IMG/VR virus record: IMGVR_UViG_3300030104_007214
Span: 1-23,786 of that record
Source: a virus
Direction: 5' to 3' (one strand)
Length of the DNA stretch: 23,786 nt
Translations under genes and position numbers: made by a program
The notes under the pieces: model-generated
Told to the model about the DNA's origin: nothing
What the model saw: the letters and a program-made list of their open reading frames with translations, nothing else
Databases searched by the model: none
Shown: positions 5,668-22,307 of the stretch, in pieces
How the letters are laid out: every line of letters starts with the position of its first letter
How positions within the stretch are numbered: position 1 is the first letter of the stretch

Positions 5668-8600
5668 ATGTGCATTCATGACTTTAGAACATACATAAAC
5701 GCTGACGTTACTTATTCTGCAGTTAGTCACCCACAGAGACCAAATACGTCTTCTGCCAATATTTCTTTGTTTGGACCTTTCAATAATCCAAATGTAACGG
5801 TTGGAGCCTTTGAGGCAGACTGGGCCCCTTCTACTTTTGAAGTTGACGAAGACAACGCATTTTTTAACAGTTTTGGATTACAAGAATTACTTCCAAGCCT
5901 TAATAATTTTATGTGGACTAGTTCAGCATACAACACTGACCCTAACGTAACTCAACCACCTTATTTCCCACCAAACTATAATCCAGGTTTTGGAAGTGGT
6001 TTTTGCGGTTGGAATTCAGCACAGGCAGTTATTATTTTTGCAAATACTGTATTATATCCTGTAGATGGAACAGGATTACATGTTAGAGCTGGAACGTCTT
6101 CATCTTTCACAACTCAAGCATACTATGTTAGTAATAGTTATGACAACAGTACTGTAATATCTAGTCCACTAGATGCCGTAACATTCGATCCTTCAGGACC
6201 AGGGTTAAATGGAGCAAATAAAGCAGCAAATGCACTTGCGGCTGCTATAACAAGTTCTAACGGTCAGCCAAGTTTAATATCTTGTTCTATATCTACTACA
6301 ACTATTGATGGAGATACATTAACTCTAACTAACATTGACCCTGGTAGTCATGCAAATAATTTTTGTTTTGATTTTATAGAAAAGGTAGACTTTCTAAACG
6401 GGATAGTTTCAATGAATAGCCATGATGCAATAGCTATAAATGCTGGACAAGAAGTGTGTTTTGAAGATGGCCACCAACCTGGATGCCAGTGTTCTTGGAC
6501 TCAGCTAGACGAAGGCCTTGAAACAAAGGATATGCTTAATAATTGTGTGCAAATGAATTATTTCTTTGTTGGAAGTAGTAGTTTTCATTGCGACTATTCA
6601 GCTAGTATGGCTGCTGGAAATCCTGCACCTACACAACATAATCATCCAACCTGGAAAGTAGAAACCTCAGATGGCCATGTTTGTTATGTTACCCGTGACC
6701 AAGAATTCCTAGTTTGGGATGGTGGAGGAACAACAGACAATCATTGGGAAAAGGCTGAAGACCTGGTACCGCAAACACCACAAACTTTTGCAAACTCAGA
6801 TTGGCTACTTGGTAATGCTAATCCAAATTTCTCTGGTTCTCTTAGTCATGGTTGGAATAATGCAACAAAATTAGTTTGTTGGCAAAATGATGTGTATGGA
6901 TATGTTAGGGTAAAATTATCCTATGATGATACACACCCTCACGACGGTAATAGCACATATGGAGGTTTACCTAGAGGAGACTATGGAAACAATTTAGCAG
7001 GATTACATGTTAATCCTGGATATACTATGAGAGAACCTCAACCTGATATTGGTAGGGCTGTTCATTGGATGACGACTGGAACAAATAGTTTCCAATTGGC
7101 AAATAGAATAGTAGTTAGGGGTTGGAGAGGAGAAATGTGTAGCTGTGCTCCTACTACAAATATTGACGATATAAGGTGTGGAACAACTAAATCTTGCTGT
7201 GTAAATAGTTCTGGTTCAGGCCAACCTGCCTCATTAACATATAATCAATTTATGACTACAACAACACAATCGGCGTTTAGTATATTATCATGGAGTCTTC
7301 ACCCTCATACAGAAAGCATAGATTATGATGTCAACTGGCATTATCCAAAACCTGGAGATAAAAGACAGGTTACCATGAGTATATCAACAACAAACGATTC
7401 TAATTTTCAGGTGTGTTTAACAGAATGGGCTCCTGTAGAACAGATATGTGAGCCACAACCTGAAAGCTTACTACCACAATGTCCAAGTTGTGGAGACACG
7501 TCTAAAGGAGTTATTGGCGACCTTTACAACCTACATCCTGCTACAATGTCTATAACGCATTATCAAGCACAAGACAGTTACGGAGGATTCAACCATGCAG
7601 CAGGAACGTTCCTTGATTATCAATTAGGTAATACTCCAGGAGTAGGGGTTTCAGGAAGTAAAGGCTCAAATTGGTCTATAGTTTTTTTAAGTCAATCTGG
7701 AACGAGTCCACAGACTGAATCTTATTACTATCACAATTATGAAATTGCATCAGGATCAGCAACAGCTTCTACAGCTCTACCTGCAGGAAACGAATCATAT
7801 TCGTATTGGGACCCACAATTTACTAGTTCAACCCACTATAGAAAAGCAAGCATGACAACATCATTTTTCTATATAGATTCTGCAGGCCCAGGTACTAGAT
7901 GGGCTGAAAGTCTTGCATTTGCTATAAATAAAACATGGGATAACAAAGAAGACTTTCCAGCATTTCCAGTGGCAGAGTTTAATCCTATTGCAAACGGTCT
8001 TCCTATGGGAATGGGTCATACCTCAACAAGTCTAAACGGTCTTCCTAATGAGTTCATAACTTTAAGAACTACTGGCTGCCATAACTATTGGTCACTATCT
8101 CCCCTTGGAAACGAAGCATTGCCGTTTGAGCCATATAGAATGAGTTATACACCTCACATGGATCTGCTGCAAGATAATGGAATCTATGAATCAATAGTTT
8201 ATGCAACAGGAGCAGTACCAATAGTATCTTATTCAGGTGTAGGAAACAATCATTTAGCTACATTTTACCCAGAGTCAGAATCTTTTGCAAATTCAGGTTC
8301 TTTTTGTGCGGAACAAAAGTGTTGTTTTGATTTAATAATAAACAAAGAACCTTCTTGGAATTCTTCAGAATCTTTATGTCAAGAAACGCCAGGAAGAGTA
8401 ATAAACGTAACTCAACTATTTAACGTAATAGACTTTGATGATATAGAGTGGTACGGTCCTATGGGAATGGAAATACCAGGAAATATGTCTGCAGCCGGTG
8501 AACTTAAGTTTGACCCTTTTACTGGGCTAGTTTTACCTGTCGATCAATTTTTTACTGTGGACGATGACGTAATGTTAAATGGTACTGCTTCACTTTGTTT

Positions 8601-10827
8601 TACTGCTTCAGTATCAAATTCACTATGTTGGAATGACGCAAGCTGTGACTATTCTCATAGTTTATATCACCCTACAACTTCATATACTCCAGACTGTTGT
8701 GCAGATATTTCAGGATGTTCTACTGTTTATCTTAACCCTGGAGTAAGTGCTGGACCAGATCAAATAATATGTTTACCTACACTTTCTGTACATGGACAAC
8801 TAACTTCACAACAACCAATGGGAACTCCATGGCCACTTCAAGGCCTACCAACTTGGAGTTTTGAAGGCGAGCATGGTACCTGGACAGCAAATATTTTAAC
8901 ACCACATTCATTTTCTACAGATGTAATTATAGAGGATTATTCTCCAGGAATAACTCCACTACACGTTACTGCTTCTGGTATTTTTACTATGAGTTTAACT
9001 GTTCCACACGGACCGTGCGAGTACACTGACCATATGTATTTTGAAATAGTAGAACAGTCTTCTTCTATATTACCAGCACAAGTAGAATGCGTAAATATAG
9101 ATTCAGATTATAGAACATTTATTACAGCGTCACAGCCATCTCCAAGTGGATATGGTAACTGGACAGTTGCAGCACCAGATGCATACACTGCTTCAGCTGC
9201 CGTGACAATATACTCTCCATCAAAATTTACTACTCAGGTTCAGATTCCTTTAGATACTACAATTACCTTTTTATGGACAAGGTGTGAGATATTTAGTAGT
9301 TCTCTAGATGTATCTAGTAATGACACTCAATCTGGTATAGCAGATATAGTTTGTTGTGGGTCAGAATCTATAGACGTAACAATTACAGCCCAACCACAGG
9401 CTCCAGTACTATTAACAGGAGTAATGCAAGACTGTCCTGGTTGTGGTGCGCAAACTGCTAGTTTTGTTGGAGAACTTAATGCATTTACTGCCCATGCTTC
9501 TTGGTCTGCAAACTTTACTACTTGGACTGAAACACATTTAACTGATACGTATATTGCTTTTTCATCATCAACCCCACCATTTACTTCTGGTACAATAATA
9601 AATAGTAGTTCTAATCATTACTTAGGTACAGATACCCCTACTATTCCATATCCAAATGCGCCAGTTGGAAATCAAGTTGTCTGGGAAAATGCTCTCGTAA
9701 CTTCGCAAGTACCAACTATATATCCTTGGACAAGTTCTACTCTTGTATTCTCTTCTTCTAATGCCAACGCTTATGGAAAAGATATAGAAATACTTCTTAT
9801 GGCTAGAGGACTTCAAGGTGTATGTGACGTGACACAAAGTACAACTATATCATTTCCATTGCCTATTCAAACAGAGTCATTTGCCTTTGTTTCAGGTGGA
9901 GGATTTTATCCTTGGGAAGAACCTTATTATGTTAATTTCGATCCAGCACAAACATCTTCTGCAGGAATTTTTAATATGCCTAAATTAAATCAGATTGTTG
10001 GTATGACATTTAGGTCTGGAGGTATTGATATACTACCAACTACACATTCCAACGTAATGGCAAAACAACGTAATGTTCCAGCTCCATATTTAACAGGTGC
10101 GTTAGGTGCATGCTTATCTACTGGTGACGTTGAACCACCATCATTACTAACTGAAGGAGGATCGTTTGATACACCATATCCTACTGGTACTCCTACAGCT
10201 GACGGTCAAACTACTTGGACACCTGCTTCTACTTCAGCTGCTGACTGGGCGCTACCATGGCCAACAAATTCTGCTGGACAAACAGACCCGTCAATAATAA
10301 TTCCTACTCCTTCAGGAGGCCTTGGAGCGTATGGAGTTAATTTTGAGTGGAATGCTCGAACAGTTGCACTGTATGGAATAACACATTCAAGTTATAACCA
10401 ATGGCACGACGCACAAATGCAAATTCACTGGCATCATGTAGCATCTATGTCAAATGACGCTACAAGCTCTGCAGGTGGAGACGTATTCACGTATATGTAT
10501 GTAACGCAGTCAAATAGTAATATAAACGAACCAGCTTGGTTAACGGGTTCTTTTGCAGATACAGGAACGTCTAGAAGTTTCCAACAGGTTCCAACATTCT
10601 TCCCTCCAAATAGAAATATAAATCATATTTATGGTTGGACAAATTATGATGGTTCTAATTACAATAATAATGCTCCTTTTGCCAGAGGACTACTAGACTT
10701 TAATCGTAAAGAACAAATAACTTCAGTATCAATAATGTTTGAAGTAACCGCTTCATATACTTCTCCATCTTGTGATGAACGATTCTATTCAAGCATGTCA
10801 ATAATGTTTACTAACCAATACACGTAA
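5668..10827 (+). CDS. Giant Cys-rich secreted/virion-type protein with PKD-like modules
   Basis: A 1719-residue protein, by far the largest in the window, rich in Ser, Thr, Gly, Trp and Cys with many CC, CxC and CxxC pairs (for example CQCSW, CSCAP, CPSCGD, CCGSES, CPGCGAQ). No signal peptide or membrane segment is visible. Residues about 1022-1130 begin VSAGPDQIIC and run to LTVPHGPCEYTDHMYFEI, the pattern of Bacteroidota PKD-like modules (AGPDQ, GTW, closing Cys). A second such module follows at about 1131-1245 (YGNWTVAAPD, ITFLWTRCE). The rest shows no family I know. A role as tail fibre, adhesin or other virion surface protein is inferred from size, composition and phage context. Start at ATG 5668 sits right behind the promoter core; an in-frame ATG at 5674 is absent, so alternatives are much further in. 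It adjoins the next gene with one base between. Confidence 0.8.
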   Translation: MCIHDFRTYINADVTYSAVSHPQRPNTSSANISLFGPFNNPNVTVGAFEADWAPSTFEVDEDNAFFNSFGLQELLPSLNNFMWTSSAYNTDPNVTQPPYFPPNYNPGFGSGFCGWNSAQAVIIFANTVLYPVDGTGLHVRAGTSSSFTTQAYYVSNSYDNSTVISSPLDAVTFDPSGPGLNGANKAANALAAAITSSNGQPSLISCSISTTTIDGDTLTLTNIDPGSHANNFCFDFIEKVDFLNGIVSMNSHDAIAINAGQEVCFEDGHQPGCQCSWTQLDEGLETKDMLNNCVQMNYFFVGSSSFHCDYSASMAAGNPAPTQHNHPTWKVETSDGHVCYVTRDQEFLVWDGGGTTDNHWEKAEDLVPQTPQTFANSDWLLGNANPNFSGSLSHGWNNATKLVCWQNDVYGYVRVKLSYDDTHPHDGNSTYGGLPRGDYGNNLAGLHVNPGYTMREPQPDIGRAVHWMTTGTNSFQLANRIVVRGWRGEMCSCAPTTNIDDIRCGTTKSCCVNSSGSGQPASLTYNQFMTTTTQSAFSILSWSLHPHTESIDYDVNWHYPKPGDKRQVTMSISTTNDSNFQVCLTEWAPVEQICEPQPESLLPQCPSCGDTSKGVIGDLYNLHPATMSITHYQAQDSYGGFNHAAGTFLDYQLGNTPGVGVSGSKGSNWSIVFLSQSGTSPQTESYYYHNYEIASGSATASTALPAGNESYSYWDPQFTSSTHYRKASMTTSFFYIDSAGPGTRWAESLAFAINKTWDNKEDFPAFPVAEFNPIANGLPMGMGHTSTSLNGLPNEFITLRTTGCHNYWSLSPLGNEALPFEPYRMSYTPHMDLLQDNGIYESIVYATGAVPIVSYSGVGNNHLATFYPESESFANSGSFCAEQKCCFDLIINKEPSWNSSESLCQETPGRVINVTQLFNVIDFDDIEWYGPMGMEIPGNMSAAGELKFDPFTGLVLPVDQFFTVDDDVMLNGTASLCFTASVSNSLCWNDASCDYSHSLYHPTTSYTPDCCADISGCSTVYLNPGVSAGPDQIICLPTLSVHGQLTSQQPMGTPWPLQGLPTWSFEGEHGTWTANILTPHSFSTDVIIEDYSPGITPLHVTASGIFTMSLTVPHGPCEYTDHMYFEIVEQSSSILPAQVECVNIDSDYRTFITASQPSPSGYGNWTVAAPDAYTASAAVTIYSPSKFTTQVQIPLDTTITFLWTRCEIFSSSLDVSSNDTQSGIADIVCCGSESIDVTITAQPQAPVLLTGVMQDCPGCGAQTASFVGELNAFTAHASWSANFTTWTETHLTDTYIAFSSSTPPFTSGTIINSSSNHYLGTDTPTIPYPNAPVGNQVVWENALVTSQVPTIYPWTSSTLVFSSSNANAYGKDIEILLMARGLQGVCDVTQSTTISFPLPIQTESFAFVSGGGFYPWEEPYYVNFDPAQTSSAGIFNMPKLNQIVGMTFRSGGIDILPTTHSNVMAKQRNVPAPYLTGALGACLSTGDVEPPSLLTEGGSFDTPYPTGTPTADGQTTWTPASTSAADWALPWPTNSAGQTDPSIIIPTPSGGLGAYGVNFEWNARTVALYGITHSSYNQWHDAQMQIHWHHVASMSNDATSSAGGDVFTYMYVTQSNSNINEPAWLTGSFADTGTSRSFQQVPTFFPPNRNINHIYGWTNYDGSNYNNNAPFARGLLDFNRKEQITSVSIMFEVTASYTSPSCDERFYSSMSIMFTNQYT

Positions 10828-11829: not shown

Positions 11830-12687
11830 ATGAATAAATTTACCAGTCTTCATGAGTTATTTTTATCAGAATTACAAGCACTTACCTATTTTGGAAATGA
11901 TGTTAGTAGTAATGGTACAAATCAAACAGAATTATTATTTAGGTCGTTTGAATTAACTGACCCTACAATGCTAGGTATTGGTTATCCATCTAGAAAATTC
12001 AATACAAATTATGCAGTTATGGAATTCTTATGGTATCTATCTAGAAATAAACGTGTAGATAATATTGGTAAATGTGCCAACATCTGGTTAAGAATACAAG
12101 ATGGACAAAATGAAGTAGAATCTAATTACGGAACCTTTATACTAGGAGAACAATGGACTTGGATTAAAGAAGAGTTAGCAAAAGATAAAGATTCTAGAAG
12201 ATGTACTATAGTTATAGGTCAGCCATATCATAAGACCAAAAACTGGCATGATATTCCTTGTACACAATTTTTACAGGTATTTATTAGAGAAAATAAATTA
12301 CACTTGTGTGTTAACATGCGTAGTAATGATATTATATTTGGATTATGTAATGATGTATTTAATTTCGCTCTTTTTCAGCAATTGATGTTAAATGAATTAA
12401 GAGAAATATATCCAGACCTAGAACTAGGTTCTTATTATCATATTGCTGGTAGTTTACACTTATATGAAATGCACTATAAAATGAGAGATAATATTCTTCA
12501 CGAAGGCGTACGAGCATTGCATTCATTAAAACACGCTCTACCTGAATTCAATGAGCAGTGGATACTAAAACCTGAGGTAAATATAGATTATATAGACAAA
12601 GAAAAGATATTTTTACCTCAAAAAAGTATGGAAAAACCAGAGCTAGTTAAATTTACAGAAAAACAAATGAAAAAGTTATTTATATGA
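11830..12687 (+). CDS. Thymidylate synthase family enzyme, probable dCMP hydroxymethylase
   Basis: Folate-dependent pyrimidine C5-alkylating enzyme of 285 aa. Catalytic Cys144 lies in DIPCTQFLQ. The phosphate-binding arginines are in DSRR (123-124), the RSND motif is at 164-167, and LHLYEMHY (H210, Y212) closes the site. The residue that reads the base is D175 (FGLCND), exactly 31 positions after the catalytic Cys. That is the spacing of C146-N177 in E. coli thymidylate synthase and C148-D179 in T4 gp42. Asn selects dUMP and Asp selects dCMP in the known enzymes, and VNMRSNDIIFG matches gp42 (VNMRSNDVVFG). So the product is more likely 5-hydroxymethyl- or 5-methyl-dCMP than dTMP. First gene of a tight block; the next gene overlaps by 4 nt (ATGA). 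Hydroxymethylase versus methylase cannot be told from sequence alone. Confidence 0.75.
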   Translation: MNKFTSLHELFLSELQALTYFGNDVSSNGTNQTELLFRSFELTDPTMLGIGYPSRKFNTNYAVMEFLWYLSRNKRVDNIGKCANIWLRIQDGQNEVESNYGTFILGEQWTWIKEELAKDKDSRRCTIVIGQPYHKTKNWHDIPCTQFLQVFIRENKLHLCVNMRSNDIIFGLCNDVFNFALFQQLMLNELREIYPDLELGSYYHIAGSLHLYEMHYKMRDNILHEGVRALHSLKHALPEFNEQWILKPEVNIDYIDKEKIFLPQKSMEKPELVKFTEKQMKKLFI

Positions 12688-12974
12688 AAAAGAAAGAATC
12701 AATACTTAAAAGAGCTGACGAGATAATTCACAATCGATCAGAAGAAAAAGAAAGAAAATACGGTCCTTTTAGTGAAGGCATGGAAAGAGCTGCAAAAATT
12801 GCTAGTGGTATGACTGGTAAAGATTTTGAAGCTGAAGATATGTATGCAGCTTTAGTGGCATTAAAACTATCTCGTCACTCATACAATTATAGAGAAGATA
12901 ATTTATTAGATTGTGTAGCTTATCTAGGCGGATTAGATAACTATATTAAGGAGAAAAATAATGAAAATAAGTAA
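12684..12974 (+). CDS. DUF6378-like phage protein
   Basis: A 96-residue, highly charged, helical protein. It carries the pattern ADEIIHNRSEEKERKYGPF, then DMYAALVALKLSRHSY, then DNLLDCVAYLGGLDNYI, which matches the DUF6378 family as I know it: an N-terminal helix ending in YG, a central helix with KLSR, and a C-terminal helix with D..D...Y. The conserved acidic and Tyr positions recall all-alpha NTP pyrophosphatases, so a nucleotide-pool role is possible, but the function is not established. It starts at the ATGA overlap with the dCMP-hydroxymethylase homologue and overlaps the dUTPase start by 14 nt, so it is translationally coupled to both. Confidence 0.65.
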   Translation: MKKKESILKRADEIIHNRSEEKERKYGPFSEGMERAAKIASGMTGKDFEAEDMYAALVALKLSRHSYNYREDNLLDCVAYLGGLDNYIKEKNNENK

Positions 12975-13398
12975 AATTAGAGATGTAAAAACTCCAACAA
13001 GAGCCAACCCAACAGATGCAGGAATAGACTTTTTTGTTCCAAACGACCAAAAACCTGTTGTATTGAATCCAGGAGATTCTGCATTTATACCATCTGGTAT
13101 TAAGGTTAACTGTCCTGAAGGATATGCTCTAATAGCATTTAACAAATCTGGCATAGCAGTTAAAAAATCTCTACATGTTGGTGCATGCGTAGTAGACAAT
13201 GGTTATCAAGGAGAAGTACACATAAATCTAACCAATGTTGGTGATGAAACAAGAGTAATACGTCCAGGAGATAAAATAGTTCAGTTTGTATTATTACCTT
13301 TAGGTGACCCATCTGTAGAATTAGTAGATGAAAATAATTTATATGAATCAGTATCTTCAAGAGGTGAAGGTGGGTTTGGTTCATCAGGAACAAAATAA
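12961..13398 (+). CDS. dut: Trimeric dUTPase
   Basis: Hydrolyses dUTP to dUMP and pyrophosphate, keeping uracil out of DNA and providing dUMP. All five motifs of the trimeric family are seen: I NPTDAGIDFFVP (17-28), II NKSGIA (in place of PRSG), III VVDNGYQGEVHINLTN, IV GDKIVQFVLLP and V RGEGGFGSSG at the C-terminus. The 145-aa length is typical. An AAGGAG site at 12948-12953 supports the ATG at 12961, which lies inside the end of the preceding gene. Motif II departs from the usual PRS to NKS, which may shift kinetics but keeps Ser and Gly. It lies in the same operon as the dCMP-hydroxymethylase homologue. Confidence 0.92.
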   Translation: MKISKIRDVKTPTRANPTDAGIDFFVPNDQKPVVLNPGDSAFIPSGIKVNCPEGYALIAFNKSGIAVKKSLHVGACVVDNGYQGEVHINLTNVGDETRVIRPGDKIVQFVLLPLGDPSVELVDENNLYESVSSRGEGGFGSSGTK

Positions 13399-13401
13399 GA
13401 T

Positions 13402-13575
13402 ATGTGGGAAGTAGAAATTAGTATACCAAAACACAAATGGGAAGTAATGTACCATACATTTGAAAACATAGCAGATCTATCAAAAGAAATAAATTGGATT
13501 ATGGGACAAGAAGACGACTTAGAAGAAAAGATACCTATGGATTTAATAGAAGGAATAAAAGTATATAAAATATGA
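13402..13575 (+). CDS. Small hypothetical protein
   Basis: A 57-residue ORF (MWEVEISIPKHKWEVMYHT ... MDLIEGIKVYKI) that fills the gap between dUTPase and the SGNH-like gene. It begins 3 nt after the dUTPase stop and ends in an ATGA overlap with the next gene, which is the strongest sign that it is real. It looks like a small alpha/beta fold with an acidic middle (GQEDDLEEKIP). No family recognised. Confidence 0.65.
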   Translation: MWEVEISIPKHKWEVMYHTFENIADLSKEINWIMGQEDDLEEKIPMDLIEGIKVYKI

Positions 13576-14642
13576 TAACACTAACAGACAAATTACAGGA
13601 CAAAAATATAAAAATTGGAATAGATGGATTATCTGGACCTATTTCAAAAAGAATATCTAATCATAATGGCGCATGGGCCCATAAAGTATTAAACCAGTGT
13701 ATTAACTCTGGGTATACTAATATAAGAATATTAGATAAGGGTGAAAAGCTGCATGAATATGATGCGATAATACTTTACTTAGGTATAAGTTATGAAGGAA
13801 CACTAAATCTTTTTGGTGGATTAGGAGATGATTTTTGTAAAAAGATGATTCAGTTAGAAAGCTATCCTGGTAAATTATTATGTCTTCAACATGAAATGCC
13901 AGATTTAGTAGATATGGTTTCTAAAAGGTTAAAAAACTCATCAACCTCAGCCTTCGCAAAAATAATAGATTTAGAAGAATTACAAAAAGCGATTGATAAA
14001 ACTGAAAAATTTGATAGAGTAGAAAAAACAACAAAACTATGCTTTGGAGATAGTCATTCATTTTCAATGTATCAACCAGGATATATGACTAGCAGAAATG
14101 ATGGATTAACTTTATTTTCAATACTAAGAGATGGTGTTAAAGAAAAAATAGTAGAAAAGTCTGGAATAAATACAGATGACCTAACACACCTTACTTTTTA
14201 CGCAGGTAATATAGATATTAGACATCACCTATGCAGAAGAGAAGATAGAGAAAAAGCTACTAGAGTTATGGTTATATATTTAGCAGACCAACTAAGTAAG
14301 TTAAACATACCAAACATTGAAATATCGCATGCTATACCTATTGAGAATGAGAGTAGAAAGCTGCCAAAAACGGGTTATTACAAAGATACTCCTTTTTATG
14401 GTTCTTGGCAAGAGAGAACACAATTAGTAAAAATATTTAATGATACAGTTGACAGTGTATGTACCCAGTATGGATGGAAAGCATTATCATGGCCTGAAAA
14501 TATATTAAATGATAAAAAAGAACTATCATTTGATGCAATGGAAAAACCTCAAAGCGTACATTTAAGTAGAGAATTTTATAGATGGGATATGGAAAATAAT
14601 TGTGAAAATAAATATCACAAAAGTGTAGTTTTTTCATTCTAA
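13572..14642 (+). CDS. SGNH/GDSL-like hydrolase domain protein
   Basis: A 356-residue protein. The C-terminal two-thirds carries SGNH-type blocks: LCFGDSHSFSM with the candidate nucleophile S161, TFYAGNIDIRHHL (G212, N213) as the oxyanion block, and PQSVHLS with candidate catalytic H330. The usual Asp three residues before this His is Gln (Q327), so the acid of the triad would be missing or supplied elsewhere. The N-terminal 140 residues (GIDGLSGPISKRISNHNG, LGISYEGTLNLFGGLGDDF) form a separate alpha/beta part that I do not recognise. The family cleaves or transfers ester-linked acyl groups; the substrate here is unknown. Context between the dCMP-hydroxymethylase homologue and the inositol-phosphate synthase allows a role in a nucleotide or DNA side chain, but this is inference. 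Confidence 0.6.
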   Translation: MITLTDKLQDKNIKIGIDGLSGPISKRISNHNGAWAHKVLNQCINSGYTNIRILDKGEKLHEYDAIILYLGISYEGTLNLFGGLGDDFCKKMIQLESYPGKLLCLQHEMPDLVDMVSKRLKNSSTSAFAKIIDLEELQKAIDKTEKFDRVEKTTKLCFGDSHSFSMYQPGYMTSRNDGLTLFSILRDGVKEKIVEKSGINTDDLTHLTFYAGNIDIRHHLCRREDREKATRVMVIYLADQLSKLNIPNIEISHAIPIENESRKLPKTGYYKDTPFYGSWQERTQLVKIFNDTVDSVCTQYGWKALSWPENILNDKKELSFDAMEKPQSVHLSREFYRWDMENNCENKYHKSVVFSF

Positions 14643-14657
14643 CTTAGTATTTATTAT

Positions 14658-14686
14658 GGGAAAATTAAAAGTGAAATAATTTTACC
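14658..14686 (+). other. Imperfect inverted repeat upstream of MIPS promoter
   Basis: GGGAAAATTA (14658-14667) and TAATTTTACC (14677-14686) pair over 9 of 10 positions around AAAGTGAAA. There is no following T-run, so it is a poor terminator. It could be an operator or a processing hairpin, or simple AT-rich coincidence. Confidence 0.3.
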
Positions 14687-14700
14687 GATTGAAAAAAATT

Positions 14701-14715
14701 TATTATATTATATAA
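14701..14715 (+). promoter_or_regulatory. Promoter for the inositol-phosphate synthase operon
   Basis: TATTATATTATATAA, matching the element before the dCMP-hydroxymethylase homologue. It is followed by an A-rich leader and AAAGGGAA at 14730-14737 before the ATG at 14744. Confidence 0.55.
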
Positions 14716-14743
14716 AAGAAATAAAAAATAAAGGGAATTAAAA

Positions 14744-15931
14744 ATGGCAAAAAACAAAAAAATTAAAGTAGGAATTATAGGAGTAGGTAATTGTGCAAAA
14801 TCACTTGTAGAAGGCGTGCAATATTATGCTAAACACGTTAAAGCAGAATCTGGAGTAATGAAAACAGATATTGGAGGTTATCTAGCTGGAGACGTAGAAT
14901 TTGTAGTAGGTTTCGATATTGATGAACGTAAGATTGATTTACCATTAGGTAAAGCATTACAACAAAGACCAAATTCAGCATGGAGTATTGTAGATAATAT
15001 TGATTCTAAAGCTCCAGTATATGAATCTCCAGTAATTGATGGATATGCAGGGTTAATGGATAATTATCCTGAAGAAAATAGATTCTTAGTTTCTGAAAAG
15101 CTAAGAAATTCTACAGATATGAATAGAGTATCTTGGACTAATGCATTAGAAAAAAAATGGAAAACTTCTATTATTAAGAAATTAGAAGAATTAGATGTAG
15201 AAGTTCTTGTTAACTATTTACCCGTAGGTTCTCAAAAGACTACAGAATTTTGGGCTGAAATTTGTTTAGAAACTGGAATCTCTTTTGTAAATTGTATTCC
15301 AGTATTTATAGCATCTGACCCAGCATGGGAGCAGAGATTTATTGACGCAGGCATTCCATTGATTGGTGATGATATGCGTTCTCAATTTGGAGCAAGTATT
15401 TTATCTCAAATGCTACAAGAATTAGCTTTTGAAAGAGGTCACCATGTAAAGGCTCATATTCAAAGAAATGTAGGAGGTAATACTGACTTCTTAAATATGG
15501 AAGATAAAACTAGATTGGCTTCAAAAAAGATTTCTAAAGAAAATGTTATTAGAGCTCAAAATGAAATTAGAGACATATCAACTGAAGATTCATTCCTACA
15601 TGCAGGACCTTCTGAATATATTCCATTCTACGGTGACAACAAAGTTGCAAACTTTAGATTAGAGCTTGAAGGTTTTGGTGGTTCTCCAGTAATACTTGAC
15701 GCTCAATTAAGTGTTCAAGACAGTCCAAATTCTGCAGGGGTAGTTATAGATGCAATTAGATACTTAAAGGTAGCAAGGGAATTAGGAGTTGTAGGAGCAT
15801 TAAGAGGACCGTCAGCGTTTACTCAAAAAACTCCACCAGATCAGATGATGTTTTCAGATGCAGTTTATGAATGTACTGAATTAGCTAATAGAAGATTAAC
15901 AGAATCTACATCAAAGCAAATGAATAAATAA
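14744..15931 (+). CDS. ino1: myo-Inositol-1-phosphate synthase
   Basis: Converts glucose 6-phosphate to 1L-myo-inositol 1-phosphate by NAD-dependent oxidation, cyclisation and reduction. The N-terminal Rossmann loop is VGIIGVGNCAKSLVEG (9-24). Family blocks follow: VNYLPVGSQKTTEFWAE, NCIPVFIASDPAW, GDDMRSQFGASILSQ, NVGGNTDFLNM, HAGPSEYIPFYGDNKVA and then DSPNSAGVVIDAIRYLK and GALRGPSAFTQKTPPDQM. These are nearly unbroken, so the enzyme is probably active. At 395 aa it is of the short bacterial/archaeal type. First gene of an operon with a HAD phosphatase 2 bp downstream. Its presence in a phage is unusual; possible uses are an inositol-derived DNA modification, an inositol lipid or a compatible solute. 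Confidence 0.93.
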   Translation: MAKNKKIKVGIIGVGNCAKSLVEGVQYYAKHVKAESGVMKTDIGGYLAGDVEFVVGFDIDERKIDLPLGKALQQRPNSAWSIVDNIDSKAPVYESPVIDGYAGLMDNYPEENRFLVSEKLRNSTDMNRVSWTNALEKKWKTSIIKKLEELDVEVLVNYLPVGSQKTTEFWAEICLETGISFVNCIPVFIASDPAWEQRFIDAGIPLIGDDMRSQFGASILSQMLQELAFERGHHVKAHIQRNVGGNTDFLNMEDKTRLASKKISKENVIRAQNEIRDISTEDSFLHAGPSEYIPFYGDNKVANFRLELEGFGGSPVILDAQLSVQDSPNSAGVVIDAIRYLKVARELGVVGALRGPSAFTQKTPPDQMMFSDAVYECTELANRRLTESTSKQMNK

Positions 15932-15933
15932 TT

Positions 15934-16329
15934 ATGAAAGTTAATGGATTTGATATAGACGGTGTAATTCATTTAGGAAATGGAGTATGTGGAGTAAGAC
16001 CTGGACCAAATGATGTAATAATAACTGGCAGAAGTTATGAAGAAGAACCAGAAACAAAGGCTTTTCTACATAAACATGGCATAACAAATCATGTTTATTT
16101 TAATCCTTTACCATTTGAACAAAAATCAAGAGAAAGTTCTGGAGCACATAAAGCTAAAACACTATCATTCTTAAAACATGAAGAAGGAATAGAAGTTCAG
16201 TTTTTCTTTGAAGATGATATAATTCAAAAAGAAGAAATAGAGGAGGCTTGGAACGGAAAGGTTATACACGTGTCTCATGATTTTACTGAAAAAGAAAATG
16301 TAAGGCACTTGGAGGATTTAGATGGATAA
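15934..16329 (+). CDS. HAD-superfamily phosphatase-like protein
   Basis: A 131-residue protein with the four HAD motifs. Motif I is GFDIDGVI (nucleophile D7, acid D9), motif II is IITGRS (T31), motif III is probably K73 in AHKAKTL, and motif IV is FFFEDD (D94, D95). It lacks a large cap domain. Small proteins of this kind dephosphorylate small phosphometabolites or DNA/RNA ends. It starts 2 bp after the inositol-phosphate synthase and overlaps the next gene by 8 nt. It is thus placed to dephosphorylate inositol 1-phosphate or an intermediate of the next enzyme; this substrate is inferred from position only. Confidence 0.7.
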   Translation: MKVNGFDIDGVIHLGNGVCGVRPGPNDVIITGRSYEEEPETKAFLHKHGITNHVYFNPLPFEQKSRESSGAHKAKTLSFLKHEEGIEVQFFFEDDIIQKEEIEEAWNGKVIHVSHDFTEKENVRHLEDLDG

Positions 16330-17785
16330 TATTTTAATACAGCTTGGTAGCACTAAAGACAAATTATTACGGAATAGTCTAGACTGGGATGTATTAAAAG
16401 ACTATGAACATTTTGTAAAGATGGTAAATAGAAGAACACTGTTTCAAAAAGGAATAGTTGACTCATACACTCCATCAGATCCAGCATTAGGATTAGAAGT
16501 AGAATATTTTCACCCATCTATAACAGCTGATGATAGAATGGTTTACATAATGGAAAATATTGTCACAATACCAGGGTTAAAATGGCAAAATGTTATTGGT
16601 AATACTATTATATCTCACTTTTATGGAGCAAGAGGTGTACACAATATTTTAACAGGAATAGATGATGATAAAAAAGCCCATATAGATTTTATTAAGTTAG
16701 GAAAGGAACAAATAGAATTTAAGAAGACTGAAATAGTAGGAGAATATACAAAACACCTTAGAGAATTAGCAGTACAGGCAAAATTAAATAAGCAAAAAGT
16801 ATGGGGTACAACTGAATTACATACAAGTATTCAGACTGCAGGCAGAAGATTTGTAAATGAGTGGTATTTAGGAAATGCTAGACATGATGATAAGGGTACA
16901 TGGTCAAATGTTTCTGAGTGGATTGCATCTTGGACACATTTGCCTTCTAGATATAATCCTAATAAGACAGTTATGCAAGGAATGAGAGAAGCAAAGGATT
17001 TAAGTGAAGGTTTTGCATATTTGACTGGTGAAAACATGATTGGAGATTATTATGGCTATCACTGCTCTACTTCTAATTCAGTAAATCCTAAATTAAATTT
17101 TAGTCATGACTCTAAATTTGTTGCTCCAGGACCAGGTGCAGTAGAAACTTTAGAACTTATGTTTCCAAATTTATCTAAAAAAGATGTACCTTTAGGCGAA
17201 CGTGTTGTTTGGATAAGGGAAAATCAAAAAGAAATATTGGATATAGAGTTTCACAAAGAGTTGTGGAATTATACTTCTACAAATGGCATAAAAATATTTG
17301 AAGATGAACAAAATGAGCTAAAATCTTATGGTACAGAGGTTAGTCTTTGCCAATATTCTGTTTACTGTAGACTTAAAAACAATCCTCACTTAATTAAAAA
17401 TAGAAAGGTTGCAAGAAGTACACCAAAACCTGTGAAGAAGGTATTGACTGAAAATATTGAAATGGAAGAGGTTCTTGTAGGAGAAACTTGCAAAGTAAAA
17501 ATGGTTAAAGAAGAAAAACCTTCTTCTAAAATAGTTAAAAAAATAAGTAAGGCAAAAACAAAAAAGATAACTCTTAACCAGTCTGGTGTTGACCTAATAA
17601 CAAGAATAATGAAGTCTTTAGGAGGAAAAGGTGTATCACACCAACAAGTATTAAAAGTAATAATTTCAGAAGGAGGTCATGGGCTTAGGCTAGATAGTAA
17701 TTGGAAAGAAAGTTGGGCTATAATGCAAGAAATGGTTAAGGCTGGAATGTTAGAAAAAGAAGGCTCTTCTTACGACTTAAAATAA
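16322..17785 (+). CDS. 5-hmdU DNA kinase / alpha-glutamyl-putrescinyl-thymine pyrophosphorylase-like protein with C-terminal winged helix
   Basis: A 487-residue protein. The N-terminal 300 residues follow the helical pattern of the HMUDK/aGPT-Pplase families described for phage base hypermodification: an early helix with VNRR (35-38), TPSDPAL (50-56) in place of PWTxDPIL, ITADDRM (67-73) in place of the NxxRxxDR block, SEGFAYL (228-234) in place of GFGxFMA, and a clear SKFVAPGPGAVETLELMF (264-281), equivalent to the PGPGxxRGL motif. A lysine-rich linker (about 365-415) leads to a helical C-terminal region (TLNQSGVDLITRIMKSLG to MLEKEGSSYDLK) that looks like a winged helix. The family modifies 5-hydroxymethylpyrimidines in DNA by phosphorylation or by displacing pyrophosphate with a nucleophile. 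GGAGG at 16311-16315 sets the start. The match is by motif order, not by search; the activity is inferred. Confidence 0.6.
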   Translation: MDNILIQLGSTKDKLLRNSLDWDVLKDYEHFVKMVNRRTLFQKGIVDSYTPSDPALGLEVEYFHPSITADDRMVYIMENIVTIPGLKWQNVIGNTIISHFYGARGVHNILTGIDDDKKAHIDFIKLGKEQIEFKKTEIVGEYTKHLRELAVQAKLNKQKVWGTTELHTSIQTAGRRFVNEWYLGNARHDDKGTWSNVSEWIASWTHLPSRYNPNKTVMQGMREAKDLSEGFAYLTGENMIGDYYGYHCSTSNSVNPKLNFSHDSKFVAPGPGAVETLELMFPNLSKKDVPLGERVVWIRENQKEILDIEFHKELWNYTSTNGIKIFEDEQNELKSYGTEVSLCQYSVYCRLKNNPHLIKNRKVARSTPKPVKKVLTENIEMEEVLVGETCKVKMVKEEKPSSKIVKKISKAKTKKITLNQSGVDLITRIMKSLGGKGVSHQQVLKVIISEGGHGLRLDSNWKESWAIMQEMVKAGMLEKEGSSYDLK

Positions 17786-20352: not shown

Positions 20353-20379
20353 TAAACAGTTATGAACAAAACAATAAAT

Positions 20380-20384
20380 GGAGG
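20380..20384 (+). promoter_or_regulatory. Ribosome binding site that sets the groES start
   Basis: GGAGG with 7 nt before the ATG at 20392. An upstream in-frame ATG at 20362 would add ten residues (MNKTINGGYI) and place this site inside the coding region; the family start favours 20392. Confidence 0.75.
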
Positions 20385-20391
20385 TTATATT

Positions 20392-20685
20392 ATGATTGAA
20401 CCAATCAGAGGAAAAGTAGCAATTAAACCAGTAGATCCAGAAGAAATGACTTCAGGTGGAGTTATTATGCCTGATATTTCTCAAGAAGGAGTTAGCCAAG
20501 GAATAATAGAGGCTGTAGGACCAGCTGACGCAGTAAGTGGACAGTTTCTTGACCCTCAATGTAGAGTAGGAGATTTAGTTGCATATCCTAAAAGAGCAGC
20601 ATATACAATGGAACTAGGAGAAGAAGAGCTTTTGGTTTGTAATGAAAGAGATTTATTTTGTATTATTAAGAGAGGAGATAAATAG
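20392..20685 (+). CDS. groES: GroES co-chaperonin
   Basis: Heptameric lid of the GroEL chamber. The 97-residue length from the chosen ATG equals the usual GroES length. The start MIEPIRGKVAIKPV matches the family's N-terminal strand. The mobile loop is EEMTSGGVIMPD, with the GVIM segment in place of the GroEL-contacting GIVL. A QGIIEAVGP turn, a RVGDLVAYPK segment and the final ERDLFCIIK match the canonical order. It resembles bacterial GroES more than T4 gp31, which is only distantly related to GroES. groEL begins 2 bp after it with AGAGGAG overlapping the stop region. Presumably it caps the phage-encoded GroEL and possibly the host's. Confidence 0.92.
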   Translation: MIEPIRGKVAIKPVDPEEMTSGGVIMPDISQEGVSQGIIEAVGPADAVSGQFLDPQCRVGDLVAYPKRAAYTMELGEEELLVCNERDLFCIIKRGDK

Positions 20686-20687
20686 TT

Positions 20688-22307
20688 ATGGCAAAAGAAC
20701 TAGAATTTAATGAACCTGCTAGAAAGGGAATAAATGCTGGAGTTGAACAATTGGCTCAGGCTGTAAAATCAACATTAGGACCTAGAGGTAGAAATGTTGT
20801 TATTGAAAAAGAATACGGAGAATACCATTCAACAAAGGATGGCGTTACAGTAGCTAAAGAGGTAGAGCTAGAAAACCCTTTAGAAAATGCAGGGGCTCAA
20901 ATAGTAAAAGAGGTTTCTCAACAAACAAATGACGAAGCCGGTGATGGAACAACTACGGCTACAGTGTTAGCTTCTGAAATAATTAGAGAAGGATTTAGAA
21001 AGATAGAATCTGGAGCCCATCCAATTGAATTGAAAAGAGGTATAGATAAAGCAGTAAAATCAGTTGTAAGTTCACTAAGAAATATAAGTAAAGAAATTTC
21101 AACTGAAGACGATATTAAAAATGTTGCAACAATAAGCGCAAATAATGATGAAGAAGTAGGTAATTTAATTTCGCAAGCAATTGAGAAAGTTGGTAGAGAA
21201 GGAGTAGTCACTGTAGAAGAATCTCAAACAGGCGATACAAGATTAGAAGTTGTTGAAGGAATGCAATTTGAATCTAAATATTTATCTCCATATTTTGTGA
21301 CCAATAATAATACAATGCAGGTTGAAATGGAAAACCCATGGATATTATTATACGATAAAAAAATTACTTCTATAAAGGAAATAGTTAAAGTATTAGAAGC
21401 AGCAATCCAAGCAGATCAACAATTACTTATTGTGGCTGAAGACGTGGATGGTGAAGCTCTTGCTGGACTTATTGTAAATAAAATGAGAGGAACTTGTAAG
21501 GTTGCAGCTGTTAAAGCTCCAGGATTTGGTGAAAAGAGAAATCAATATCTAGAAGATATTGCAGCTCTAACAGGAGGAACGGTTGTATCTTATCAAAGAG
21601 GAATGAGACTAGATAAAATAACTAGTGAAGTATTTGGAACAGCATCAACAGTAACCATTGGTAGTAAATATACTACTATAGTAGATGGAGCAGGTACTCA
21701 AGAAGGAATAGAATCTCGTATAAATGCAATAAAATTTGATATAGATAACGCAACTTCTAATTACGATAAAGAACAATGTCAAGAAAGATTAGCTAAACTC
21801 GCAGGCGGAGTTGCTATACTAAGAATAGGTTCTCAATCAGAAATTGAAATGAAAGAAAAGAAAGATAGAGTAGAAGATGCACTAAATGCTACAAGAGCTG
21901 CACTAGATGAAGGTATTGTTCCTGGAGGTGGTATAGCCTTGATGAGATGTTTAGATTTAGACTTATCATTAGAAAATGATGACCAAAAATCAGGCGCAGA
22001 TATAGTACTTAAAGCAGCTAGGGCTCCATTCAAATGTATAATGGAAAATTCAGGATTAAATCCTGAGGTAATTTGGGAAAAGGTAAAGGATTCAGAGCAA
22101 AACAATGGATTTGATGCCAGAAGAGAACAAGTTGTAAATATGTTTGATGCTGGAATTATTGACCCTACTAAAGTGACTAGAGTGGCACTTGAAAAAGCTG
22201 CATCGGTAGCAGGAACACTATTAACAACCGAATGCGTAATAACTAAAAATCCAGAAGAGGCTGGAAAAGAACCATCAATGGCTGGTGGTGGCTTCGGTAT
22301 GATGTAA
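20688..22307 (+). CDS. groEL: GroEL chaperonin, full length
   Basis: ATP-driven folding chamber. At 539 aa it is full length. Visible blocks are [17 protein letters not shown] (28-44), the ATP-site [17 protein letters not shown] with D86, an apical domain containing [16 protein letters not shown] and APGFGEKRN, then [20 protein letters not shown], the intermediate/equatorial return [16 protein letters not shown], and the flexible tail AGGGFGMM, shorter than a full GGM repeat tail. All elements needed for an active ring are present. It is cotranscribed with groES. Carriage of both subunits by a phage is uncommon and may serve folding of capsid or the giant protein. Whether it came from the host lineage cannot be judged by eye. 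Confidence 0.96.

Follow-up and report, generated by a model that had tools for sequence, protein, structure and literature searches.

Why would a virus carry genes for making inositol among enzymes that act on the bases of DNA? The question is posed by a marine phage, IMG/VR virus record IMGVR_UViG_3300030104_007214, analysed here as one stretch of 23,786 bp (the window), which also encodes replication genes, a B-family DNA polymerase and GroES/GroEL. On the plus strand, between 11830 and 17785, lie genes for a thymidylate synthase (TS)-fold homologue of dCMP hydroxymethylases (11830..12687), an SGNH-fold protein (13572..14642), myo-inositol-1-phosphate synthase (MIPS; 14744..15931), a HAD phosphatase (15934..16329) and a 487-aa HMUDK_hel protein (16322..17785), together with three smaller genes. 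Sequence comparison leads us to propose, with a probability of roughly two in three, that this cassette is a cytosine hypermodification pathway using inositol. The genes listed in an earlier first-pass annotation of the sequence, their coordinates, the 2-bp gap between MIPS and HAD and the 8-nt overlap between HAD and the 487-aa gene were all reproduced from the open reading frames. Its division of the genes into two adjacent transcription units was not borne out, as consensus promoter and terminator scans gave results no better than shuffled sequences.

Viral MIPS genes lie beside DNA-modification genes

Most relatives of the window are metagenome fragments, so that little can be concluded when a contig lacks a gene; labels beginning with L denote relative loci found in our scans. 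The MIPS scans kept the best 80 loci each and leave very distant MIPS uncovered. Restricting the count to loci found with MIPS queries gave 147 loci in 51 clusters at 90% identity, 29 of which extended for 4 kb or more to either side of MIPS. DNA-modification genes stood beside MIPS in every one of these 29 clusters: HMUDK in 14, ADDT (amino acid:DNA transferase) in 10, and FolE/QueC/QueE or the Menderavirus protein in 5. The HAD gene was present in 26 of the 29 and accompanies MIPS in all three contexts (HMUDK, ADDT and preQ0). A tree of 47 MIPS sequences requires 12 changes among the three contexts, against 2 if each formed a single clade, so the MIPS–HAD pair has been plugged repeatedly into different base-modification pathways. 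Whether MIPS and the HMUDK-like gene co-occur in other phages, a question left by the first-pass annotation, is answered by the 14 HMUDK clusters.

The cassette itself is more than a chance arrangement: hundreds of viral loci carry it, in many phages that are not related to one another. The gene order of the window is unchanged in 17 close relatives. In L018 and L019, which belong to a different phage lineage, the order is SGNH-MIPS-HAD-FkbM-HMUDK; here the SGNH protein is 37% and the HMUDK 42% identical to that of the window, and the polymerase match 27%, whereas MIPS is 84% identical, which argues that MIPS moves on its own. Broader scans added more than 200 further loci. The 211 loci collected up to then formed 50 clusters by shared sequence, in which the cassette took the orders SGNH-MIPS-HAD-FkbM-HMUDK, SGNH-MIPS-FkbM-HAD-HMUDK and MIPS-HAD-HMUDK-SGNH. 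Where MIPS had 4-kb flanks (18 clusters, a count that mixes three queries and hence is not selection-free), SGNH and HMUDK were present in 18/18, HAD in 17/18 and an FkbM methyltransferase in 13/18; FkbM occurs in many relatives and is not in the window. Bacterial genomes yielded only four relatives, three of them in virus-like contigs that have the full cassette and the fourth a lone gene. Two contigs binned as Rhodobacteraceae and Planctomycetaceae (L325:10194-11405 and L327:5316-6545, respectively) carry the complete cassette and, upstream of it, a dCMP-deaminase-like protein. In both, a related protein directly follows SGNH, and the L325 copy, the only one scanned, matches a C5-cytosine methylase. 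The lone gene (L326:8004-9035, a Crocinitomix algicola contig) encodes an HMUDK_hel protein (57.7 bits) without MIPS, near an integrase-like open reading frame. A 5-hydroxymethyldeoxyuridine (5hmdU) DNA kinase belongs to a reported defence system (PMC13092281).

These counts bear on a reading in which MIPS and HAD serve the infected cell as auxiliary metabolic genes, providing osmolyte or phospholipid or acting in phosphate economy, and have DNA-modification neighbours by coincidence or shared early expression. Inositol does have such roles in bacteria generally, and phage MIPS is annotated without a stated role. This account is nevertheless very improbable in our view, given that the DNA-modification neighbours of MIPS in all 29 clusters belong to three unrelated types, with repeated switching between them, that lipid or transport genes are not recurrent in the cassette, and that the HAD and HMUDK genes, like the HMUDK and SGNH genes, overlap or abut.

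The two other MIPS contexts have features of their own. MIPS–HAD stands beside ADDT in L240, L245, L250, L252, L276, L279, L285, L298, L304 and L305, sometimes with FkbM, and two ADDT–MIPS contigs also encode a canonical HMUDK; these loci suggest inositol on another modified pyrimidine. MIPS adjoins the 7-deazaguanine (preQ0) genes FolE, QueC or QueE in L021, L244, L251, L259, L260 and L300, with HAD in all except L260, and several of these loci also encode a 400-450-aa protein, phrog_10773. Both contexts occur in cultured phages: ADDT and a TAGT-like glycosyltransferase adjoin MIPS in Caulobacter phage Cr30, and FolE, QueC and QueE accompany it in Stenotrophomonas Menderavirus. In Cr30 a protein matching the CBASS inhibitor Acb3 (231 bits; L022:15816-16616) is also encoded near the MIPS region. 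We tentatively suggest that MIPS–HAD is a portable inositol supply for three pathways, acting on 5-hydroxymethylcytosine (5hmC) via HMUDK and SGNH, on an ADDT-modified pyrimidine and on 7-deazaguanine, which together could form a class of cyclitol-bearing bases.

A cytosine-type hydroxymethylase accompanies the cassette

To which base would the cassette apply? The TS-fold protein of the window (PF00303, 59 bits) carries an Asp in place of Asn177 of Escherichia coli TS, in an alignment with T4 gp42 through MRSND..FG..ND, which upholds the earlier call of a dCMP-type Asp, and has the catalytic Cys in a PCT motif where TS has PCH. Its closest solved structures in the PDB are CMP and dCMP hydroxymethylases, the CMP hydroxymethylase MilA scoring about as well as the dCMP enzymes. 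In a metagenome association study, Asp at 177 was found mostly in modified-cytosine contigs, positions 177 and 147 being the most telling (PMC8670742). The TS-like proteins adjoining the cassette are of the Asp type in 26/26 cases, and an Asp-type protein is encoded in each of the 10 larger cassette genomes searched, sometimes far from the cassette. Among three ADDT or preQ0 MIPS genomes, two had no TS match and one had the Asn type only. Judged by these sequences, the modified base is probably cytosine. A T4-type deoxynucleoside monophosphate kinase was matched in only 1 of the 11 cassette phages searched.

The 487-aa protein is a candidate 5hmC DNA kinase

The first-pass annotation had described the 487-aa protein as HMUDK/aGPT-like from a PGPG motif. 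The motif and the HMUDK half of that description stand: a Pfam search of 16322-17785 places the protein inside a hypermodification family, with PF18723 (HMUDK_hel, the 5hmdU DNA kinase domain) matching at 43.1 bits against a cut-off of 25, over profile positions 149-276 of 281. The other half does not, since neither aGPT-Pplase nor ADDT (PF18724) appeared at E<=1 in the Pfam search, and an aGPT-Pplase or ADDT identity was rejected. A profile link between ADDT and HMUDK was weak (E=0.001, probability 21%) and was not used.

With PF18723, phages ViI, M6 and phiW-14 each yield a single protein. Aligned with hhalign against these HMUDKs, the profile of the window family matched over 249 columns (E=1.8e-5, probability 78%), pairing YYGYH with PF(L/M)AY, PGPGA with (A)GPG and CQYxVYxR with CExxKYxR. 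A second alignment to known HMUDKs (E=2.6e-6) is left unused, as its input set could contain a known HMUDK. The modelled structure is helical, and about residues 422-486 at its C-terminus form a winged-helix-like domain. The M6 HMUDK phosphorylates 5hmdU in DNA ahead of transferase steps (PMC6449724), and the HMUDK-like protein is expected by analogy to do the same to 5hmC in DNA; the predicted substrate is 5hmC and not 5-hydroxymethyluracil because the partner hydroxymethylase is of the cytosine type.

An SGNH protein accompanies HMUDK in the MIPS clusters

The first-pass annotation placed an SGNH-like hydrolase between its two units. The model confirms the fold, and the protein proves to be a core partner rather than a bystander. 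It matches phrog_13881/17781 and bears an extra N-terminal alpha/beta domain. The model (predicted local distance difference test, pLDDT, 90.6) reaches a Foldseek probability of 1.00 to several SGNH enzymes and resembles sialate O-acetylesterase, GDSL lipases and PAF acetylhydrolase, and all 37 homologues share Ser161, Gly212, Asn213 and His330. An SGNH gene accompanies all 14 HMUDK–MIPS clusters tested, locally in 13 and elsewhere in the genome in the 14th (L243). It was not found in six ADDT/preQ0 MIPS contigs or in Cr30, Menderavirus, M6, ViI or T4.

Other phages have SGNH proteins of this family on their own. Within 22 SGNH-only clusters (L130-L163, L165, L167; 314 kb), searched as a control, there was no match to MIPS, HAD, HMUDK, ADDT or preQ0 genes. 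A 405-aa protein (f0) always lies downstream of SGNH in these clusters, and a pyridoxal-phosphate-fold protein (phrog_7093) is present in 20; they possibly represent another decoration of hydroxymethylcytosine. The f0 protein, a 318-aa protein of Aeromonas phage AS-gz and the Menderavirus phrog_10773 were considered as HMUDK/ADDT homologues and rejected, as hhalign supported none of them.

In Aeromonas phage 44RR2.8t the two partners form a single 795-aa protein, in which SGNH is fused to HMUDK, and the same fusion occurs in phage 31. The 44RR2.8t genome has a gp42-type dCMP hydroxymethylase. No MIPS or HAD gene was found beside the fusion in 44RR or 31; a vSGLT-like symporter adjoins it in 44RR/31 (in 44RR nearest vSGLT, E=3e-103). 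SGNH and HMUDK possibly act as one unit, with import replacing inositol synthesis in 44RR. Phages 44RR, 31 and 25 have gene 42 and no glucosyltransferase, and in 2010 any further modification of their DNA was an open question (Petrov et al. 2010, PMC2993671). Phages 25 and AS-gz also encode the SGNH protein. In AS-gz (L024:4762-8026), genes for UDP-galactopyranose mutase, the 318-aa protein and the SGNH protein are consecutive, and no HMUDK was found in the genome.

The fusion has a bearing on a simpler outcome, in which 5hmC would only be phosphorylated, or receive another small group, and inositol would enter indirectly, for instance as precursor of another donor. The HMUDK family installs phosphate (PMC6449724), and the coupling enzyme of the cassette is assigned without certainty. 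We nonetheless regard such an end point as most unlikely, as the SGNH–HMUDK fusion and the optional FkbM suggest a further, hydroxyl-rich group.

MIPS and HAD as a source of inositol

Among solved structures, the window MIPS (PF01658, 86 bits) matches the Mycobacterium tuberculosis inositol-phosphate synthase 1gr0 (E=1.9e-79). Window residues D210, K300, D326 and K362 align with D197, K284, D310 and K346 of 1gr0, which we take to be its catalytic residues, and are invariant in the phage alignment; the identification of MIPS made in the first pass holds up in the profile searches. The HAD protein, called a phosphatase from the outset, has all four HAD motifs (DIDGVI, TGR, K and EDD) and starts 2 bp after MIPS. 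It matches phrog_415 (polynucleotide kinase/phosphatase), and the DxD nucleophile motif, part of DIDGV in the window, is kept in 126/126 homologues. We regard it as a candidate inositol-phosphate phosphatase.

The attached group could instead be one other than myo-inositol, namely another cyclitol or a further conversion product of inositol phosphate, within the same hypermodification. The mycothiol INO1 equivalog TIGR03450 scores 291.6 bits with the window MIPS, below its cut-off of 638; a five-membered-cyclitol phosphate synthase is among the closest characterised relatives; and in Aeromonas phages SGNH adjoins UDP-galactopyranose mutase or a sugar symporter. We consider this variant unlikely, because the true inositol-phosphate synthase 1gr0 is much closer and has the four residues in common, and because, FkbM apart, the cassette has no recurrent enzyme dedicated to cyclitol modification.

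A proposed pathway for an inositol-bearing cytosine

Taking myo-inositol as the group, the steps could be as follows. The TS-fold enzyme would convert dCMP to 5-hydroxymethyl-dCMP, which would then be phosphorylated and incorporated into phage DNA. From glucose 6-phosphate MIPS would form inositol phosphate, which the HAD protein would dephosphorylate to free inositol. The HMUDK-like protein would activate 5hmC in DNA by phosphorylation, and an inositol hydroxyl would be joined to the activated hydroxymethyl group, most plausibly by the SGNH protein, possibly by HMUDK itself. In many relatives, not in the window, FkbM would probably methylate an inositol hydroxyl; enzymes of this family transfer methyl groups to hydroxyls of a sugar-like kind, in keeping with an adduct rich in hydroxyls. 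Like the glucose on T4 DNA, the modification would be expected to protect the phage genome against nucleases of the host.

What the sequences show directly are the gene families, the residues of the active sites, their conservation and the co-occurrence of the genes. The hydroxymethylation step and the tie of the cassette to DNA modification are well supported; the HAD substrate, the kinase activity on 5hmC, the coupling enzyme, the linkage and inositol on DNA itself we infer. The connection that the first-pass annotation had drawn from inositol synthesis to DNA hypermodification is strengthened by the MIPS clusters, the Asp-type enzyme and the SGNH–HMUDK fusion. ADDT was absent from the 11 larger cassette genomes searched, the same search being positive in ViI, M6 and phiW-14, so coupling would fall to SGNH or HMUDK itself; SGNH is favoured because of the fusion and its constant presence, and we give it roughly even odds.

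Several observations weigh against the pathway. The SGNH protein lacks the Asp at -3 of the usual DxxH (the residue there, 327, is K, G, Q or R, and Glu324 does not vary), and the usual substrates of SGNH enzymes are acyl esters. Its occurrence without MIPS or HMUDK, in the 22 clusters and in AS-gz, means that it is not tied to inositol. The PF18723 match is limited to the C-terminal half of the profile. The HMUDK-like model as a whole has no convincing counterpart in the PDB, where its C-terminal winged helix alone is matched. The MIPS homologue 6k96 (E=5e-44), the five-membered-cyclitol phosphate synthase mentioned above, makes a different cyclitol, and the 44RR symporter, whose nearest match is a sugar transporter, is not a proven inositol carrier.

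Other genes of the window

The TS-fold gene is followed by genes for a DUF6378 protein at a conserved position (12684..12974; PF19905, 40 bits), a dUTPase, a nucleotide-pool enzyme (12961..13398; PF00692, 70 bits; phrog_135), and a small 57-aa protein kept in several close relatives (13402..13575). The DUF6378 gene, whose product we would guess to be a nucleotide pyrophosphohydrolase, immediately precedes SGNH in L018/L019 and the SGNH-only lineage; in the window it lies a short distance before SGNH. The DNA polymerase gene comes after the 487-aa HMUDK_hel gene. A 1719-aa protein (5668-10827) with repeated, apparently Ig/PKD-like segments is inserted beside the replication genes, its relatives being much shorter and divergent. 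The phage GroES and GroEL pair (20362-22307) is kept in close relatives whose contigs extend that far. Rfam, tRNA and PADLOC scans added nothing.

Relation to known DNA modifications

The predicted pathway shares its outline with the thymidine pathways of ViI, M6, SP10 and phiW-14, namely a TS-fold hydroxymethylase, an HMUDK_hel protein and then a donor-specific enzyme. In those phages HMUDK is joined by ADDT/aGPT-Pplase and the donor genes supply amino acids, whereas the cassette has a cytosine-type hydroxymethylase, SGNH replacing ADDT, and inositol-making genes. With T4 (glucosyl-5hmC) and RB69 (arabinosyl-5hmC, with a gene set that includes a polynucleotide kinase-type phosphatase; PMC8056088) it would have in common a gp42-type dCMP hydroxymethylase and a hydroxyl-rich group on 5hmC, but the cassette lacks a glycosyltransferase or sugar-nucleotide gene, and the group would be a cyclitol attached via an activated base. 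The 5hmC carbamoylation found by MetaGPA (PMC8670742) likewise sets a TS-like Asp177 protein beside a dedicated transferase acting on 5hmC; HMUDK, SGNH, MIPS and HAD take the place of its carbamoyltransferase. Aeromonas 44RR2.8t and 31 resemble the cassette in their SGNH and HMUDK domains and dCMP hydroxymethylase, and differ in the fusion of these domains, in the lack of MIPS/HAD found beside them and in the possible import of a polyol or sugar. As the first-pass annotation had stated, an inositol-modified base seems not to have been described: searches of an open-access library turned up no report of one, though an earlier mention is possible.

If the proposed pathway is correct, a cyclitol would join the known groups on viral DNA, MIPS genes in hundreds of viral contigs would acquire a role, and there would be an answer to what Aeromonas phages 44RR, 31 and 25 place on hydroxymethylcytosine. 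Cultured relatives exist in Caulobacter phage Cr30, Stenotrophomonas Menderavirus and Aeromonas phage 44RR, so the reading is testable. Hypermodified bases bear on restriction, CRISPR and type IV defence, and on the reading of modified virome DNA.

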